A DNA stretch of 64,000 nt. Origin: Paraburkholderia hospita. GTDB taxonomy: Bacteria; Pseudomonadota; Gammaproteobacteria; Burkholderiales; Burkholderiaceae. Under the pieces are notes generated by a model. The model saw nothing but the letters and a program-made list of their open reading frames with translations. It had not been told where the DNA came from and ran no database searches. How positions within the stretch are numbered: position 1 is the stretch's first letter; every line of letters begins with the position of its first letter. Location: positions 1-64,000 of the forward strand of contig NZ_CP026107.1 in assembly GCF_002902965.1 (NCBI RefSeq), written 5' to 3'. Shown piece by piece: positions 3,520 to 50,932 of this stretch. The position numbers and the translations under genes were made by a program.

Positions 3520-3560
3520 GGTTTTGGCGGGGTGCCTGGCTGATCGGCGGTGGCACCTGG

Positions 3561-4370
3561 CCTGATGTGGTTTGTTTGTGTTTCAGTAGTTGAATGCCTT
3601 TCCCTAGCGGGGTTTGTTTTTGATGACGCCGCTTCTCTTTTCGGTCGTTCGACCGGTCTCTTCATCACTCTCCGCGATTTGGTCCAGCACTGCGTTTCCG
3701 CTGGCTGGTGTGCTTTGGCGTGGCGTTGCTCGTGAGGGGCTTTACGCTACGACGATTCTTCGCGCGGCGCTTGTGGGCGGGATTTCCTTGATCGGGCCCG
3801 TGACGTCGTGTGCGCGGTGGGCCCTCGGCCTGATGTGGCTTGTTTGTGTTTCGGTAGCTGGATGCCTTTCCCTAGCGGCGTTCATTTTTGGTGACGCCGC
3901 TTCTCTTCTCGGTCGTTCGACCTCTCTTCCTCACTCGCCGCGATTTGGTCCAGCACGGCGCCGCCGGCCGGCGTGCTTTGGCGTTGCGTTGCTCGTGGGG
4001 GCGTTGCGCTACGACGATTCTTCGCTCGGCGCTTGTGGGTGGGATTTCCTTGATCGGGGCCGTGACGTCGTGTGCGCGGTGGGCCCCCCGGCCTGATGTG
4101 GCTTGTTTTGTTTCGGTAGTTGAATGCTTTCCCCTTGCGGCGTTTGTTTTGGTGACGCCGCTTTTCTTCTCGGTCGTTCGACGTCTCTTCCTCACTCTCC
4201 GCGATTTGGTCCAGCACGGCGCTTCCGCCAGTTGGGGTACTTCGGCGCGGCGTTGCTGGTGGGTGGTGCTTCAGACTCTGGCGATGGTTCGCGGCTCTTT
4301 GGGGTGGGATTTCGTTGGTCGGGCCCGTCGCGTCGTGTGTGCGTGTTGCGTCGCGGAGGGCCCGGCGAGC
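3561..4370. repeat. Three imperfect ~265-bp tandem direct repeats downstream of parB
   Basis: Copies begin at 3561, 3829 and 4092, each opening with CCTGATGTGG; the third fades out near 4370. Each carries a GGTCGTTCGAC near-palindrome (3643-3654, 3911-3922, 4172-4182), followed by the conserved TCTTC and GATTTGGTCCAGCAC stretches. Open frames run through all copies on both strands but drift between copies, have no ribosome sites and look like shadows of GC-rich DNA. The position right after parB suggests a centromere or incompatibility-type region; that is inference. Confidence 0.8.
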
Positions 4371-4659: not shown

Positions 4660-5936
<1,277 letters not shown>

Positions 5937-7051: not shown

Positions 7052-7401
7052 AAAACCCTCCAGCTGCGGGAGGGTCGACGCGTCACCCTTTGGTTGCTCT
7101 GCTGAGCCACATCCGCTTTCGCGATCCACCTTGCCGGGGCGGGCAGGTTGGCATGGGCGTCGACCCAATTCAAGATGAACCGGCAGTAGAGCATGGTGGC
7201 CAATTCAGCGTCAAGGCGGCAGACTCCGCTTCTGCACACCTGCATACGACAACCGGTTGCTCGCCGAAAATCGCACCCGTATCGTTCGCATGAACCGAGC
7301 ACGGTGCGACTCACGGTGCGACTGACCGCACGCGAGCCAAACGCATCGCAGGAACACCCCGTGCATCCCGAACGCGAATCGAACCGACACGAACCTACTC
7401 A

Positions 7402-30620: not shown

Positions 30621-32705
30621 ATGTTACAGGGCAGCTACAACAGTCTTCTCGTGCTGTTCTCGCTCCTTGTCGCGGTGCTGGCCGCGTACACGTCGCTTGA
30701 AATGGCGGGGCGCATCACGACCGCGACCGGCCGGGCCGCGCGTTGGTGGCTCACGGGCGGAGCATTCGCGATGGGGCTCGGCATCTGGTCGATGCACTTC
30801 ATCGGCATGCTCGCGTTCAGCCTGCCAATCCGGCTCGGCTACGATCCCGTCGTCACACTGCTTTCGCTGTCGATCGCGGTTGCGTCGTCGGCGTTCGCGC
30901 TGTGGCTCGTTTGCCAGGACGCGTTGCCCACCGGGCGGCTTGCGGGCGGCGCGGTCCTGATGGGCCTCGGCGTCGCGGGCATGCACTACACGGGCATGGC
31001 AGCCATGCAGATGAAGCCGGGCATCGACTATGACGCCGGGCTCTTCGCGCTGTCGATCGTGATCGCCGTCGCCGCCTCGGGCGTCGCGTTGAAGACGGCC
31101 TTCAGCCTGCGGCACAACTCGCGCCGCGTGCGCCCGCTGCGCGCGGGCGCCGCCGTCGTGATGGGACTCGCGATCGTCGGCATGCACTACACGGGCATGT
31201 CGGCGGCGGCCTTTCCGGTTGGCAGCCTGTGCGTCGCGGCGACGGACGGCGTGAACACCACGTGGGTTGCCGTCGTCATCATCATCGTGACGCTCGCGGT
31301 GACGGGCGTCGTACTGTCGATTTCCGTGCTCGACGAGCTGCGGCTCGAAACGGAGAACGCGGCGCTGACCCGTTCGCTTGCGCAAGCCAACCAGGAGCTC
31401 GGCTATCTCGCCTGGCACGACGCGTTGACCAAGCTGCCGAATCGCGTGCTGCTCGAAGGCCGGCTCGAAGAAGCACTGGCGAATGCGCGCGTGGACGGCA
31501 GCCAGTTCGCCTTGATGTTCATGGACCTCGACGGCTTCAAGGTCGTCAACGACGCATACGGCCATCAGGTCGGCGACCGGCTGCTGGTGCAGGTGGCCGA
31601 GCGGCTCGCGTCGGCCGTCCGCGCACGGGACACGGTGGCGCGCGTGGGCGGCGACGAATTCGTGCTGCTCGTGCCCGGCGAGGACCAGGCGGGCGCGATA
31701 GCCGTCGCCAGCCGGTTGCTGGCCGTGATCGGCGCGCCGTTCGAGATCGACGGCCACGAACTGGGTATATCGACCAGCATCGGCATCGCGATGTGTCCCG
31801 CCGACGGCGCTCGCGGCCACGAGGCGCTGATGCACGCCGACGCCGCGATGTATCACGCGAAGTCGCTGGGCCGCAACGCGTATTCCTTCTTCGATGTGTC
31901 GATGAACGAGAACATGCAGGGCCAGTTGCAGCTGACGCAGGACCTGCGCGTGGCCGTCGAGCGCAAGCAACTGGTGCTGCACTATCAGCCGCAATTCGCC
32001 GCGCCCGATGGGCCGATTACGGGAGTGGAGGCGCTCGTGCGCTGGGCACATCCGAAGCGCGGCCTGATCGGCCCCGACGAATTCATCCCGCTTGCCGAAA
32101 AGACGGGGCTGATCGTGCCGATCGGCGAATGGGTGCTCGACGAAGCGTGCCGCCAGATCCGCGAATGGCTCGATTCGGGCGCGTGCGACTGGAACGTCGC
32201 CGTCAACCTGTCGCCCGTGCAGTTCGGCCACCCTCAATTGACGTCGCTGGTGCGCGAAACGCTGGAGCGGCATCGCGTCGATCCGCGCCGTCTGACGATC
32301 GAAGTGACCGAGTCGGCGGCGATGCGCGATGTCGACGCGAGCCTGCGCATTCTGCACAGCCTGCACGAGATGGGCGTGCGGATTTCCATCGACGATTTCG
32401 GCACTGGCTATTCGAGTCTGATGTATCTGAAGCGTTTGCCCGCGAGCGAGCTGAAGATCGACCGGGGCTTTGTGCGCGAGCTGGCGCATGACGCGGAGGA
32501 TGCGGCGATCGTCTCGTCCGTGGTCGCGCTCGGCCATACGCTGGGTATCGAGATCGTCGCGGAAGGCGTCGAGACCGCGACGCAAAAGGAGTTTCTGACG
32601 CGGCTCGGGTGTAATGCTTTGCAAGGCTTTCTGCTCGGACGGCCGGTTCCGGCTGCGGACCTGGACGCCTTGTCGAAAGAATGCACGCAGCCGAGTCTGT
32701 CCTGA
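30621..32705 (+). CDS. MHYT-GGDEF-EAL cyclic-di-GMP signalling protein
   Basis: A 694-residue membrane protein. Seven hydrophobic helices (residues ~1-245) form an MHYT sensor with three motif copies (SMHFIGM, GMHYTGM, GMHYTGM), which may bind copper and sense O2, CO or NO. A diguanylate cyclase domain follows with intact VGGDEF (near 343-347). A phosphodiesterase domain with EALVRW (near 469) and later DDFGTGYSS completes it. Both catalytic signatures are intact, so it could make or break cyclic-di-GMP. Start ATG 30621 (MLQGSYNSLLV) suits the family; ten more codons are open upstream. Confidence 0.93.
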   Translation: MLQGSYNSLLVLFSLLVAVLAAYTSLEMAGRITTATGRAARWWLTGGAFAMGLGIWSMHFIGMLAFSLPIRLGYDPVVTLLSLSIAVASSAFALWLVCQDALPTGRLAGGAVLMGLGVAGMHYTGMAAMQMKPGIDYDAGLFALSIVIAVAASGVALKTAFSLRHNSRRVRPLRAGAAVVMGLAIVGMHYTGMSAAAFPVGSLCVAATDGVNTTWVAVVIIIVTLAVTGVVLSISVLDELRLETENAALTRSLAQANQELGYLAWHDALTKLPNRVLLEGRLEEALANARVDGSQFALMFMDLDGFKVVNDAYGHQVGDRLLVQVAERLASAVRARDTVARVGGDEFVLLVPGEDQAGAIAVASRLLAVIGAPFEIDGHELGISTSIGIAMCPADGARGHEALMHADAAMYHAKSLGRNAYSFFDVSMNENMQGQLQLTQDLRVAVERKQLVLHYQPQFAAPDGPITGVEALVRWAHPKRGLIGPDEFIPLAEKTGLIVPIGEWVLDEACRQIREWLDSGACDWNVAVNLSPVQFGHPQLTSLVRETLERHRVDPRRLTIEVTESAAMRDVDASLRILHSLHEMGVRISIDDFGTGYSSLMYLKRLPASELKIDRGFVRELAHDAEDAAIVSSVVALGHTLGIEIVAEGVETATQKEFLTRLGCNALQGFLLGRPVPAADLDALSKECTQPSLS

Positions 32706-46165: not shown

Positions 46166-46828
46166 ATGGATGAACCGACAACGCATGCAGAAACCGGCGG
46201 CACGACGCGGCTAGGCGGCGCAAGGCTGCTTTCGATCAACATCGGCGTGTGCCAGCCGCTCGACGTTGGACTCGCATCCGAAGGTCTGAGCGTCGAGTCG
46301 GCGATCCGCAAGCGTTCGGTGAGCAGCGCGAGCGAAGGCGCGGTGGTCGAAGTGAAGAAGCTCGGGCTTGTGGGCGACGAGCAGGCCGACCTCAGCGTTC
46401 ACGGGGGCCTCGACAAGGCCGTTTATCTCTATCCGTTCGAACACTATGCGTGGTGGCGGCAACGGCGCATCGAGGCCGATCTACCCGATGCGGGCGAGCC
46501 GTTGGCATTCGGCATGCTCGGTGAGAATCTGACGACGCAGGGCTTGCTGGAATCGGATCTTTGGGTTGGCGATACGCTCGTGATTGATCAGGTCAGGTTA
46601 CGGGTGGAAGCGCCGCGCAGCCCCTGTTTCAAGCTCAATGCTGCGATGGGGTACAGGAAAGCGGTCAAGCATATGTATCTGAGTGGATTTGCCGGTGTGT
46701 ATCTGAGCGTCCTGCAGACGGGGTTTATTCAGGCTGGCGCACGCATTGAAGTCGTGCCGGGGCGTAGGGAGGAGTCGGTGAGCAACATTCTCGACTGGCG
46801 GCGCGGGAAGGCTCGGCGGGAGCCATGA
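46166..46828 (+). CDS. MOSC domain protein, YiiM type
   Basis: A 220-residue MOSC protein of the YiiM type: LSINIGVCQPL, SAIRKRSV, LGLVGDEQADLSVHGGLDKAVYLYPFEHYAWW, FGMLGENLTTQGL and APRSPCFKL with the conserved cysteine. E. coli YiiM reduces N-hydroxylated base analogues using molybdenum cofactor. It probably shares a transcript with the nitronate monooxygenase (27-bp gap), so both may handle nitrogen-oxidised compounds. Confidence 0.9.
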   Translation: MDEPTTHAETGGTTRLGGARLLSINIGVCQPLDVGLASEGLSVESAIRKRSVSSASEGAVVEVKKLGLVGDEQADLSVHGGLDKAVYLYPFEHYAWWRQRRIEADLPDAGEPLAFGMLGENLTTQGLLESDLWVGDTLVIDQVRLRVEAPRSPCFKLNAAMGYRKAVKHMYLSGFAGVYLSVLQTGFIQAGARIEVVPGRREESVSNILDWRRGKARREP

Positions 46829-46911
46829 GGTTTGAGCCTTCGCGGCGCGGGCGTTGCCGGTCGGTGTGCTTGTCTTTGCGCTGGCATCCGCGTATTGCCT
46901 TCGCGCTTCGA

Positions 46912-47505
46912 GCGTCGCCCCTGTGCGGGGCGGCACCTACTTTTCTTTGCCGCCGCAAAGAAAAGTAGGCAAAAGAAAGCGGCTAACACCGCCAACATTT
47001 CTTCTTGCCTGAGGGCACCCAACCGGTCCCTCACTTCACACGGCAATCACGTGACTCATGTTCGTTGCCAACGCTCTTGCGGCGCGCCTCACCCGCTTCA
47101 CGCACCCGCGCTTCACCATGCCGTGCCAGATATTCCACGGCCGCCCAGGTGGCAAACTGTGTGTAGGCCGTAGTGCCTCACACGCCTCGCTCCGGACCGA
47201 TAGCGCACGCGTTCCCCCCTTTAAGAGCGCCAAGCTATACGCCGCGACAACCTACACACAGTTTGCCACCTGGGCGGCACATACCATTCGCTGCCGCTAG
47301 CTCTTGTTTGGGTGTTTGAAGTGGGTGAGGCGGTCATTCGAAGCGTTGGCGACGAACGCGAACAGAAATGCTGCCGTGTGAAGCGTAAGACCCTTTGGGG
47401 GCCCTCAGGCAGGAACTAGAGTTGGCGGTGTGAGCCGCTTTCTTTTGCCTACTTTTCTTTGCGGCGGCAAAGAAAAGTAGGTGCCGCCCCGCACAGGGGC
47501 GACGC
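46912..47505. repeat. Palindromic repeat element, copy 1 (594 bp, 85-bp terminal inverted repeats)
   Basis: Terminal inverted repeats 46912-46996 and 47421-47505 match at 84 of 85 positions. A second, internal 27-bp perfect inverted repeat lies at 47141-47167 and 47251-47277, so the element is nested and symmetric. It contains no plausible gene; frames within it are the same arginine-rich strings on both strands. A second copy in the same orientation lies at 49035-49626. Confidence 0.9.
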
Positions 47506-47513
47506 ATGAACCG

Positions 47514-47696
47514 CGAAGGCATAACGCGGATGCCAACGCAAGGGCAAACACACCGACCGGCAACGCCCGCTCCGCGAAGGCTCAAACCGGATGCCAGCGC
47601 AAAGGTAAACACACCGACCGGCAACACCTGAAGCACGAAGGCATAACGCGGGTGCCACCAAAAAAACAAAAACGCGACTGGCAACGCCCGCCCCGC
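47514..47696. repeat. Three ~61-bp tandem repeats next to palindromic element copy 1
   Basis: Units start at about 47514, 47575 and 47636, each opening CGAAGGC or CGAAGG and containing ACACACCGACCGGCAAC or a variant. The same unit occurs in inverted orientation on the outer left side of both elements (about 46850-46911 and 48950-49034). Confidence 0.75.
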
Positions 47697-47753
47697 AAAG
47701 CCAAAAAAACCAAACCGCCCGCGCCGCCAAGGCGCCCAAGCGGATCCCCACAC

Positions 47754-47990
47754 TCAGTCCTTCTTCTCGGCTTTCAGCCGACGATACTCGTCAACCGGCA
47801 ACCCACCCCATCCCCAGTTTTCCTTCTCGACCTCCTGAATAACGACGAAGGTTGCTTCCAGCGGCTTGTTCAGCACCTTCAGCAGCAACTCGCTCGTTCC
47901 CTTGATGAGTTGCGCCTTCTCTTCCGGCGTTACTGCGCTCGTGCCGGGCGTATTTCCCTCGCGCGTAACCTGAATAGTCACGATAGGCAT
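47754..47990 (-). CDS. 4-oxalocrotonate tautomerase-family protein
   Basis: A 78-residue tautomerase-superfamily protein beginning MPIVTIQVTREGN; after removal of Met the N-terminal proline is the catalytic base. ATPEEKAQLIKGTSELLLKVLNKPLEATFVVIQEVEKENWGWGG fits the 4-OT/YusQ-like shape, though residue 11 and the C-terminal part differ from canonical 4-OT. Substrate unknown. It follows the SDR gene by 67 bp on the same strand and is likely cotranscribed. Confidence 0.88.
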   Translation of the reverse strand: MPIVTIQVTREGNTPGTSAVTPEEKAQLIKGTSELLLKVLNKPLEATFVVIQEVEKENWGWGGLPVDEYRRLKAEKKD

Positions 47991-48057
47991 CAGAATCTCC
48001 GTAATGTCGTGTGGGACAGGCGCCGTTGCCGGCGCCTCGCCGTGCTTCGTGGCGTGC

Positions 48058-48768
48058 TTAGTGGCCTGCGCTCTGGCCGCCGTCGACGTGCAGGATCTCG
48101 CCCGTGACGAACGACGCGGAATCGAGATACAGCACTGCATTGACGATGTCGCTCATCTCGCCCATGTGGCCGACGGGATGCAGCGAACCCAGTGCTTCGT
48201 GCGTTTCCGGCGCGTGCATCGGCGACTTGATGATGCCGGGCGATACAGCGTTCGCGCGGATGCCCGACTTCGCGTATTCGATCGCGAGCGACTTCGTTGC
48301 GGCGTTCAGGCCGCCCTTGGTCAGCGACGCGAGAACCGACGGCACGCCCGAGATTGCGTGATCGACGAGGCTCGTCGAGATCTGCAGGACGTGGCCGCTC
48401 TTGTTCTTTTCCATCTCGGCGATGGCGAGCTGCGTGATGTGGAAGAAGCCGTTCACATTCACATTCAGCACGGCGGCGTAGTCTTCGGCCGTGTATTGCG
48501 TGAACGGCTTGGCGATGAAAATGCCTGCGTTGTTGATCAGCGTGTCGATGCGGCCGAAGCGTGCAATCGCTTCCGAAACGGCGCGTTGCGCGACTGCGCG
48601 GTCGCCGATGTCGCCGGCGATCGCCACGACGTTCGCATCGTCCGACGGCTTGATCGAGCGCGCGACAGCGACGACGCGATAACCGTGCTCACGGAAGCCC
48701 TTGACGATCTCGGCGCCAATGCCTTGCGATGCACCTGTGACGATTGCGACTTTTTGCGAATTGCTCAT
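48058..48768 (-). CDS. SDR-family protein lacking the catalytic tyrosine
   Basis: A 236-residue short-chain dehydrogenase fold with intact cofactor motif VTGASQGIG, INNAG, and VSPGIIKSP. At the YxxxK position it reads VLASLTKGG: Lys is kept but Tyr is Ala. The active-site Ser region is QISTSLVD. It may use another acid/base or act as a non-catalytic or altered enzyme. It is paired with the tautomerase gene and flanked by the two palindromic elements. Confidence 0.87.
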   Translation of the reverse strand: MSNSQKVAIVTGASQGIGAEIVKGFREHGYRVVAVARSIKPSDDANVVAIAGDIGDRAVAQRAVSEAIARFGRIDTLINNAGIFIAKPFTQYTAEDYAAVLNVNVNGFFHITQLAIAEMEKNKSGHVLQISTSLVDHAISGVPSVLASLTKGGLNAATKSLAIEYAKSGIRANAVSPGIIKSPMHAPETHEALGSLHPVGHMGEMSDIVNAVLYLDSASFVTGEILHVDGGQSAGH

Positions 48769-49034
48769 GATGGACCTCGAAGAGTTGTTCGGCTTTGTGT
48801 CGGAATTGACAGTGCCGTTAGGTCGTAAATCTAGGCTTCCTCGGCGTTGTTGCGAACACCCGGGTTGGACAAACTGTTGTGATTGGGAGGAATAAGTGGG
48901 GTTTTTTTGTCTGCGACGCGGGGTGGTTGGTATGCGTTTGCGCTGGCATGTGCGCTATGCCTTCGTGCTTCAAGCGTTGCCGGTCGGTGTTTTGGCCTTT
49001 TCGCTGGCATCCGCGTTATGCCTTCGTGCTTCAA
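48769..49034. other. Gap with inverted 61-bp repeat units
   Basis: The outer left side of palindromic element copy 2 carries two degraded 61-bp units in inverted orientation (near 48950 and 49011). No gene is supported; arginine-rich frames here are artefacts of the repeats. Confidence 0.5.
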
Positions 49035-49626
49035 GCGTCGCCCCTGTGCGGGGCGGCACCTACTTTTCTTTGCCGCCGCAAAGAAAAGTAGGCAAAAGAA
49101 AGCGGCTAACACCGCCAACTCTTCTTCCTGCCTGAGGGCCCCCAAAGGGTCTTACGCTTCACACGGCAATCACGTGACCCATGTTCGTTGCCAACGCTCT
49201 TGCGGTGCGCCTCACCCGCTTCACGCACCCGAGTTGCCGCACGCCGTCTCAGATATTCCACCGCCGCCCAGGTGGCAAACTGTGTGTAGGTCGTAGTGCC
49301 TCGCACGCCTCACTCCGGACCGATAGCGCATGCATTCCACCCTGTAAGAGCGCCACCCTATACGACGCGGCAACCTACACACAGTTTGCCACCTGGGCGG
49401 CACATACCATTCGCTGCTGCTTGCCCGAGTACGGGTATTCGAAGCGGGTGAGGCGTTCGTTCGAAGCGTTGGCAACGAGCACCAACCAGGGCACTGCCGT
49501 GTGAAGCGTGGGACCGTTGGGGGCCCTCAGGCAAAAACTAGAACGGCGGTGTGAGCCGCTTTCTTTTGCCTACTTTTCTTTGCGGCGGCAAAGAAAAGTA
49601 GGTGCCGCCCCGCACAGGGGCGACGC
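49035..49626. repeat. Palindromic repeat element, copy 2 (about 592 bp)
   Basis: Left arm 49035-49119 and right arm 49545-49626 are near-perfect inverted repeats, closely matching copy 1. The internal inverted repeat recurs at 49264-49290 and 49374-49400, again 27 bp and perfect. Same orientation as copy 1. The stretch from here to the LLM gene (49627-49921) shows no gene. Confidence 0.9.
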
Positions 49627-49921
49627 ATGAAGCACGAAGGCATAACGCGGATGCCCGCGAAAAGGCAAACAACCAAACCGCATGCGCAGCAAATCCCGCC
49701 TCGCGGACGCCAGCGAAGCAGGCACAAAAAAACCGACACACTGCCTGTGGTACTGCACACCAAATGAAACTGACTGTTGCGAGCTTGATCATTCACGCTG
49801 ATCGACCGTGCCAACGCAGTCAAAAACGGCGACGCCCATGCCTAAAAAGCCGCGCCGGGCAAGCCGGACACGGCGTCATACGCGAACGATCAGCCCATCG
49901 AACCAGGGCCAGAAACCCGCA

Positions 49922-50932
49922 CTACTCGTTAGGCGCAAACCCCGGAAGCACGTCCTCATGCAATTCATCAAGTATCTGCCGATAATCCCGCGGCGTCACA
50001 CGAGGGTTCAACGCGACGTGCGACACCCCATGCTCCCGCGCCAGATCGAGGTAATCCCGCAGCGCGCGACTTCCAATCGCAAAACCGCCACCGATCCGCT
50101 TGAACGGAAAATCCCGCCGCGGATGCAGGTACAAAAACCCGCCAAACGCGAGCGGCTTCGCGTCGCCATCGGGGTTCGTCTGACGATTCGTTTCTCTCCA
50201 CTCATCGGCGAATGATTGCAACCGCGCAGGTTCCGGCACGAATCCAAGATACCCGTCCATATTGCCCGCGATCCAACCAAGCGTCTGCTGCGAGCGCCCG
50301 ACCGCGATAGTCGGCACTCTCCCGAACACAGGCTTCGGCAGCATGGTCAGCGAGCCATCTCCGCGTCCAAAACACTCCGATTCGAAGCGCGGAAAGTTCT
50401 GCTCGCTCACGCTGCGATAAACCCCATATGCATCGCGGAAACGCTCCCCGCGACTTTCAAAGTCGATGCCAAACACGGGATATTCGGAAGGCCGATCACC
50501 CGACGACATCCCTATCACGATGCGTCCGCCCGTCAGCCTGTCGAGCGAATTGACCTGCTTGGCGAGCATGAGCGGCTCGCGCATCGGCAGCACGATGCCT
50601 GTCGTGCCGAGCGTGATGCGCTCGGTCGCGGTGGCGAGGTGCCCGATGTAGATCAGCGGCTCGAAGATCTGCCCGGAATCGCCGTATTGCGGATCGTAGA
50701 ACGGGATATCGCGCGCCCACAACGCGGCCACGCCGGCTTGTTCGGCACGTTGCGCCATCTGCAGATGGTCGGCCATTGACGGATGAGGCGACGCGGCGTG
50801 CGTTTCGAGCGGCAGGATCAGCCCGACGGTGAGCGCGTCGCGCCGGAAGACGCGGTCGTAACCGCGATGACCCTGCAAAGGGAACGGAGTGCGCTCGACT
50901 TGCGTTTCGGGAAAAGCGATTGGCATGTCCAT
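49922..50932 (-). CDS. LLM-class flavin-dependent oxidoreductase
   Basis: A 336-residue luciferase-like monooxygenase of the TIM-barrel type using reduced FMN or F420: LTVGLILPLETHAASPHPSMADHLQMAQRAEQAGVAALWARD, RITLGTTGIVLPMREPLMLAKQVNSLDRLTGGRIVIGMSSGDRPSEYPVFGIDFESRGERFRDAY. ATG 50932 has GGAGG eight bases upstream. Substrate unknown. Confidence 0.9.
   Translation of the reverse strand: MDMPIAFPETQVERTPFPLQGHRGYDRVFRRDALTVGLILPLETHAASPHPSMADHLQMAQRAEQAGVAALWARDIPFYDPQYGDSGQIFEPLIYIGHLATATERITLGTTGIVLPMREPLMLAKQVNSLDRLTGGRIVIGMSSGDRPSEYPVFGIDFESRGERFRDAYGVYRSVSEQNFPRFESECFGRGDGSLTMLPKPVFGRVPTIAVGRSQQTLGWIAGNMDGYLGFVPEPARLQSFADEWRETNRQTNPDGDAKPLAFGGFLYLHPRRDFPFKRIGGGFAIGSRALRDYLDLAREHGVSHVALNPRVTPRDYRQILDELHEDVLPGFAPNE

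Follow-up and report, generated by a model that had tools for sequence, protein, structure and literature searches.

A dispersed family of long palindromes in Paraburkholderia hospita with predicted triplex-pseudoknot ends

Two long palindromes in the window (the whole 64,000-nucleotide stretch of Paraburkholderia hospita DNA analysed here) belong to a dispersed, non-coding, high-copy family. On balance we favour, with moderate confidence, a family whose ends form triplex-pseudoknots, whose structure provokes breaks and whose breaks are repaired from sister copies. On a single strand, be it exposed in replication, in transcription or as RNA, each end would form a pyrimidine-motif intrastrand triplex with an H-type pseudoknot closing it, and the element as a whole would form a giant hairpin. 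Such a fold may stall polymerases and provoke breaks or template switches; repair from sister copies would homogenise the family, flip cores and trim copies to solo hairpins. Copies would persist at the ends of transcription units, where structures are tolerated, and their terminator-like hairpins may also end incoming transcripts.

The two elements and their end module

Element 1 occupies 46912..47505 (+, 594 bp) and element 2 49035..49626 (+, 592 bp). They are 89% identical and lie in the same orientation, in agreement with an earlier sequence-only reading that placed two palindromes of ~593 bp here. Their inverted ends measure ~82 bp, at the lower edge of the 82-85 bp it gave. The perfect internal inverted repeat that it described as 27 bp long is present, with arms of 28 and 29 bp: 47140-47167 and 47251-47278 in element 1 (pair 47140..47278, unstranded, 83-nt spacer), 49263-49291 and 49373-49401 in element 2 (pair 49263..49401, unstranded, 81-nt spacer). 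Self-complementarity extends beyond the ends, reaching ~75% across the whole element, and the minimum folding energies of -422 and -429 kcal/mol compare with means of -222 and -224 for dinucleotide shuffles (30 each; z -37.5 and -30.9). A scan of the two elements against Rfam returned no family at its cut-off.

Each element end carries two terminator-like GC hairpins, the outer facing in and the inner facing out. The outer hairpin at 46914..46934 (+) is terminator-like for transcripts arriving from the left and has mirror or sister copies at 47483-47503 (-), 49037-49057 (+) and 49604-49624 (-). The inner one at 47424..47439 (+), followed by TTTCTTTT, is terminator-like in the outward direction, with mirror or sister copies at 46978-46993 (-), 49101-49116 (-) and 49545-49560 (+). 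Beyond what the earlier reading noted, both elements are flanked on either side by 61-bp units pointing outward: tandem units to the right of element 1 (47498..47680, +), one inverted unit to its left (46859..46919, -), two inverted units to the left of element 2 (48913..49034, -) and one unit to its right (49619..49679, +). The conserved tautomerase-SDR gene pair between the elements (47754..48768, -) lies outside the repeat family.

A triplex/pseudoknot module is predicted at all four ends, at 46938..46983 (-) and 47434..47479 (+) in element 1 and at 49061..49106 (-) and 49555..49600 (+) in element 2. Read outward, its order is P1, TTTCTTTT, GCC, TACTTTTCTTTG, loop, CAAAGAAAAGTA in 4/4 cases; in the left module of element 1, P1 is GCCGC, TTTCTTTT the third strand, GCC the linker, TACTTTTCTTTG/CAAAGAAAAGTA the stem and CGGCGG the loop. 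The third strand repeats the pyrimidine arm of the stem in mirror order, which fits the parallel T.A-T / C+.G-C rule for third strands. In the terms of the class definitions in the available text of PMC4666352, the module would be class IV, and class II on the other strand; the element ends look built to encode such an intrastrand triplex.

Comparison across variants shows that each end carries a predicted stem compensated in three strands together with a covarying loop pairing. The predicted mirror third strand accompanies 41 of 43 unique variant-stem hairpins, the other two having no tract; variant classes with their own third strand include TTTCTCTT (21/21) and TTTCTTCT (3/4), and the consensus stem has its exact third strand in 140/158 and lacks it in 18/158, counts in which many instances are kin rather than independent events. 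For the stems TTCTCTTT, TCTTCTTT and TTTCTTTC, the predicted tract and the consensus tract place C differently; these stems come with their own tract in 25/26 and with the consensus tract in none. Variant stems were collected mostly through searches on the stem alone, and the comparison used the last 8 nt of the tracts with no demand for a pyrimidine tract. Three searched variant stems occur in 28/144, 3/144 and 0/144 genus genomes; by our count, there are seven distinct compensated stem states.

The loop can pair with the bases immediately 5' to the third strand, as GCCG/CGGC here and as TGTG/CACA, TCGC/GCGA and others elsewhere. Over 121 unique instances, a set that demands a pyrimidine tract, the Watson-Crick fraction at four fixed positions is 0.70, against 0.365 in 1000 shuffles (sd 0.024, max 0.44) and 0.17-0.50 in shifted registers. 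With the register left free, 77 cases score 3.81 against 3.08 (sd 0.08). Templated copying yields direct or inverted repeats rather than mirror ones. Reading the tracts as direct repeats was rejected by hand: it needs a separate shift for each variant, whereas the mirror reading holds one register. Mirror tract and loop pairing together favour one folded strand over H-DNA.

The same comparison bears on whether the elements are BIME/REP-like sites bound by a chromosome protein such as gyrase or IHF, with an incidental fold. They are dispersed, intergenic and palindromic, with two strongly conserved blocks (the ends and the inner repeat), as that account would have it; however, the coordinated changes of stem, third strand and loop are not what a fixed protein site would predict, and we judge the account very improbable.

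Other features of the window were recorded alongside. A perfect hexamer array at 5477-5936 (CAGCGA x 76.7, then GCAGGG x 6.3) translates in one of its frames into a (DS)n repeat and is a candidate hypervariable locus. Three tandem copies of ~262 bp with 84% matches occupy 3547-4343, a SAM-I-IV riboswitch (59.2 bits) lies at 7080-7183 (-), and three repeats of ~69 nt, about 195 bp apart, fall within a predicted gene at 30746-31204, perhaps encoding repeated domains.

Copy number, placement and turnover

The family has a very high copy number, with near-invariant ends around divergent cores of constrained length. In the genome of the window (G000; 11.5 Mb, 6 contigs), all 40 candidates scored, out of 236 at first look, are full length (at least 592/594 positions matched); 39 are 89-93% identical and the remaining one is the query. 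The 34-bp terminal palindrome occurs there 306 times with up to 3 mismatches, its reversed control 0 times, and exact terminal palindromes number 363 in G042 and 337 in G001; their positions are those among the matches listed per genome, as are the genus matches below. Since many copies were found, the elements are not unique to this locus, the outcome by which the earlier reading had said it would fall. Between ~2.77 and 3.36 Mb of G000 contig C1, no terminal palindrome appears over nearly 0.6 Mb among the matches listed; elsewhere in G000 these palindromes mostly lie tens of kb apart.

The element has matches in 83 of 97 genomes of the genus. Among the matches listed, ten genomes have a full-length match (the window's own included, the others at 67-93% identity) and 14 further ones an end-only match of 82-93 bp at 95-99%; the remaining matching genomes are known by E-values alone, with no match placed. 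At 29 loci of relatives (those returned by the search, not a random sample), both ends lie within 453-673 bp in 22, and 7 have no partner end; nine of the 22 cores are of the window type and 13 are of other types that still fold strongly. Thus the ends recur widely in the genus, and cores differ between lineages yet remain palindromic. Twenty named plasmid records also match, from Paraburkholderia (10), Burkholderia (7, by a 68-bp end only) and Caballeronia (3); no annotated feature lies under the best plasmid matches, one of the 20 records carrying no annotation at all. A phage origin was rejected: element 1 had no match in 50,697 phage records, nor the GTTAC-form module in viral contigs.

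We analysed 63 full copies out of 71 examined, omitting 8 with a truncated end. Their mean pairwise identity is 86% and 57 of them are 593-595 bp long; conservation is 99.7% in columns 1-73, 99.1% in columns 530-611, 98.7-98.8% in the columns of the inner inverted repeat and 85-88% in core blocks. A coding-like ORF is absent from 62 and one copy is unclassifiable, which upholds the earlier view that no protein is encoded. By a home-made gene caller, used for ORFs and gene context alike, 35 of the 62 classifiable copies lie in convergent, 26 in tandem and 1 in divergent gaps, against 10, 20 and 9 in a background of 39 window gaps that includes the elements' own (p 2e-4). The elements are thus intergenic, favour convergent gaps and avoid divergent (promoter) gaps.

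This bias would suit an RNA-level element, that is, a transcribed 3' structure or small RNA acting to end or protect transcripts, as would the 12 terminator-like matches found at 46700-49950, where 4.8 are expected, and the loop pairing, which requires one folded strand; the triplex in RNA would presumably resemble an ENE or a telomerase-type pseudoknot. Against it, two-sided covariation in the core helix is sparse, at 13/162 pairs, so that RNA-type covariation across the core was rejected as weak, and no sigma-70-like promoter was found. With the evidence from other genera given below, we hold an RNA-level element to be unlikely.

G000, G042 and G001 share the order MOSC, element 1, tautomerase-SDR, element 2, LLM; both elements are also present in G053, its LLM gene being unmatched within the stretch. 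Four relatives (G043, G020, G095 and G021) keep the four genes and lack the elements, and in G020 and G095 manual reading finds a GC-rich hairpin in the MOSC-tautomerase gap. As these relatives keep the gene order, the elements came later than that order or were jointly lost. The proposal that the direct repeats excise or amplify the genes between them therefore finds no support: tautomerase-SDR and neighbours are in place in the four relatives without the elements and the four species with them. A composite transposon around the pair was likewise rejected, since the genes stay without elements and the second SDR copy has none in its vicinity. That copy (G000 contig C2, 632299-633012) is 94% identical to the SDR of the window, with no element within about 2.8 kb; a similar second copy in G021 has none within 1.2 kb or more.

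Comparison of close species shows gain and loss at species level, overwriting of some orthologous copies by paralogues, in-place inversion of cores and variation of the 61-bp arrays. In 14 same-orientation pairs with flanks 88-98% identical, the true ortholog ranked first among the 63 G000 copies in 3, in the top three in 6 and beyond the 20th in 6; in three flipped pairs it ranked 3rd, 13th and 56th. A tree of 84 copies mixes species labels with slight clustering (17 changes against a shuffled mean of 20.2 and a least possible 3; as low as 17 in 2/200 shuffles). An ortholog that is best in 3/14 pairs, together with this slight clustering, indicates that overwriting is partial. Two G001 copies (L148 and L150) are near-identical inside the element only, and by hand count cores are inverted relative to their flanks at 3 of 10 orthologous loci. 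Where full copies stand in G042 and G001, G000 retains only a solo outer hairpin, and about 1.5 kb of other DNA splits the end of one G000 copy (L344, 14961-17028). With many copies, no genes and species-level gain and loss, the earlier label of non-autonomous or structural repeats fits.

Could the elements be MITEs, with inverted ends on which a transposase encoded elsewhere acts by cut and paste? They are non-coding and multicopy with inverted ends; the window locus is element-free in the four relatives named above; and two G042 copies stand at sites empty in both G000 and G001 with flanks 94-97% identical (the first compared with G000 and G001, the second as L332 with L331 and L342). However, the extra tracts at these sites, 856 and 867 bp, run past the ends into 61-bp-like units. 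At the junctions, the first site has an overlap of 2 bp at most, and the second lacks 31 bp that are present in the empty site. The sequence-only reading had urged a search for copies and their target duplications: copies abound, and neither the two gain sites nor a diverged empty site showed a clear target-site duplication. Five longer copies that were fetched hold intruding IS elements and no transposase of their own, so that no autonomous transposon with the same ends, and hence no parent, was found among them. Nor do element ends lie within the 1.5-kb flanks of the three Y1_Tnp transposase matches in the genome, by which a RAYT partner was rejected. Many sites are common to several species, and the palindromy is full-length, unlike in a MITE. 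We regard this reading as rather unlikely and prefer that of structure-provoked breaks repaired from sister copies.

The intruders in the terminal palindrome fall at recurrent positions: three in G001 (L133, L134 and L135) at one position, give or take about a base, and two in G042 (L136 and L137) about 7 bp from the mirror-equivalent positions. We take them to be IS30-like in G001 and IS256-like in G042; the palindromes seem to serve as landing sites for IS elements. SbcD, one subunit of the nuclease that usually acts on long palindromes, passes the family cut-off in 10 of 97 genus genomes, the window's not among them. Loss of SbcCD as a precondition was rejected: G043 has SbcD and 289 first-look element candidates.

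The module in other bacteria and known systems

A GTTAC form of the hairpin, in a scan that asks for the hairpin only, occurs in at least 120 stretches, 80 of them named. Among the matches listed are Stenotrophomonas, Xanthomonas, Lysobacter, Dyella, Aggregatibacter and Mannheimia, and further Silvimonas, Methylomonas, Mucilaginibacter and draft Desulfobacterales and Selenomonadales; the module is found across several phyla. The exact hairpin is found in 13 of 274 genomes of the class, the window's included, and a relaxed pattern finds the module in 127 of 130 loci (120 of those stretches plus 10 class loci). In Lysobacter, Aggregatibacter and Burkholderia, among others, modules occur in inward-facing pairs 380-640 bp apart; genes within widely spaced pairs (eight loci) look, from their translations, like ordinary host genes.

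Several Rfam RNA families adjoin the module or sit inside such elements. Bp1_684 (RF02421) passes its cut-off at both ends of an element in Burkholderia seminalis (L174), covering the outer hairpin and its outward flank; the window differs, its scores of 41.5 and 34.9 bits falling short of the 44 bits required. TwoAYGGAY matches stop at the module twice in L247 and also in L176, both matched in both halves in inverted order with the 3' end adjoining the module (RF01731; PMC2864571, as far as its available text goes); the window element is unlike these: even at E values up to 10, the covariance model of the family has no match in 46800-47700. In L169, AaHKsRNA22 falls within the Aggregatibacter element. 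TwoAYGGAY and AaHKsRNA22 appear to form part of palindromic elements that share this end module.

These overlaps also speak for an RNA-level element, the more so as Bp1_684, which overlaps the element ends, corresponds to Bp1_Cand684, an RT-PCR-positive transcript of B. pseudomallei in Table 3 of PMC3521395. Lone modules elsewhere nevertheless favour neither orientation with respect to genes (of the upstream genes lying within 400 bp, 36 are on the same strand and 46 on the opposite one, by crude ORF calls), and a 3'-UTR orientation bias was rejected for them. More broadly, it is possible, if doubtful, that one ancient palindromic class with triplex-pseudoknot ends spans Proteobacteria, Desulfobacterota, Firmicutes and Bacteroidota, unifies Bp1_684, TwoAYGGAY and AaHKsRNA22, and spreads via its folded single strand with no classical transposase.

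Intrastrand triplex repeats as such are known. Holder et al. (2015; PMC4666352), in the available text, name four intrastrand triplex classes and characterise a G/C-rich motif, tie triplex repeats to instability in E. coli, describe how inverted pairs are deleted with a hairpin left behind, report no stable triplex in vivo for their motif and cite earlier work that saw no terminator activity for it; the last two points speak against the fold favoured here. The BoxC/PIT/TM-ECO repeats of that text and of the Maher work cited in it resemble ours in having three stem blocks in succession on a single strand, in their multicopy occurrence, sometimes as inverted pairs, and in local instability and hairpin-leaving deletions. 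TM-ECO is, however, G/C-rich, class II and short; the present module is T/C-rich and predicted class IV, has the loop-P1 pairing and stands at both ends of a ~0.6-kb palindrome. Being T/C-rich, it does not follow the G/C-rich BoxC pattern of the CCCTCNCCC type given there, and the word Burkholderia is absent from the main text of PMC4666352. REP, BIME and REPIN sequences, in what PMC3733652 and PMC2817692 offer in their available text, are likewise high-copy intergenic palindromes, and our outer hairpin is similarly preceded by GTAG; their units of 20-40 bp differ from the present elements (PMC3733652), and in other genera the position of our GTAG reads mostly GTAAC.

In a literature search with subscription papers mostly outside its scope, no paper describes the module by title or abstract, its letter string occurs only in papers unrelated by title, and nothing was found on AaHKsRNA22. 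The T/C-rich module, the pseudoknot, the giant-palindrome ends and the Rfam overlap did not appear in the searched literature.

Compensation in three strands would be strong comparative evidence for a bacterial triplex under selection, and the abundant variable copies provide a natural mutational scan. Gains, overwriting, inversions and trimming among close species make the link between non-B structure and instability testable, and orphan sRNA families may be re-filed as parts of one element type.
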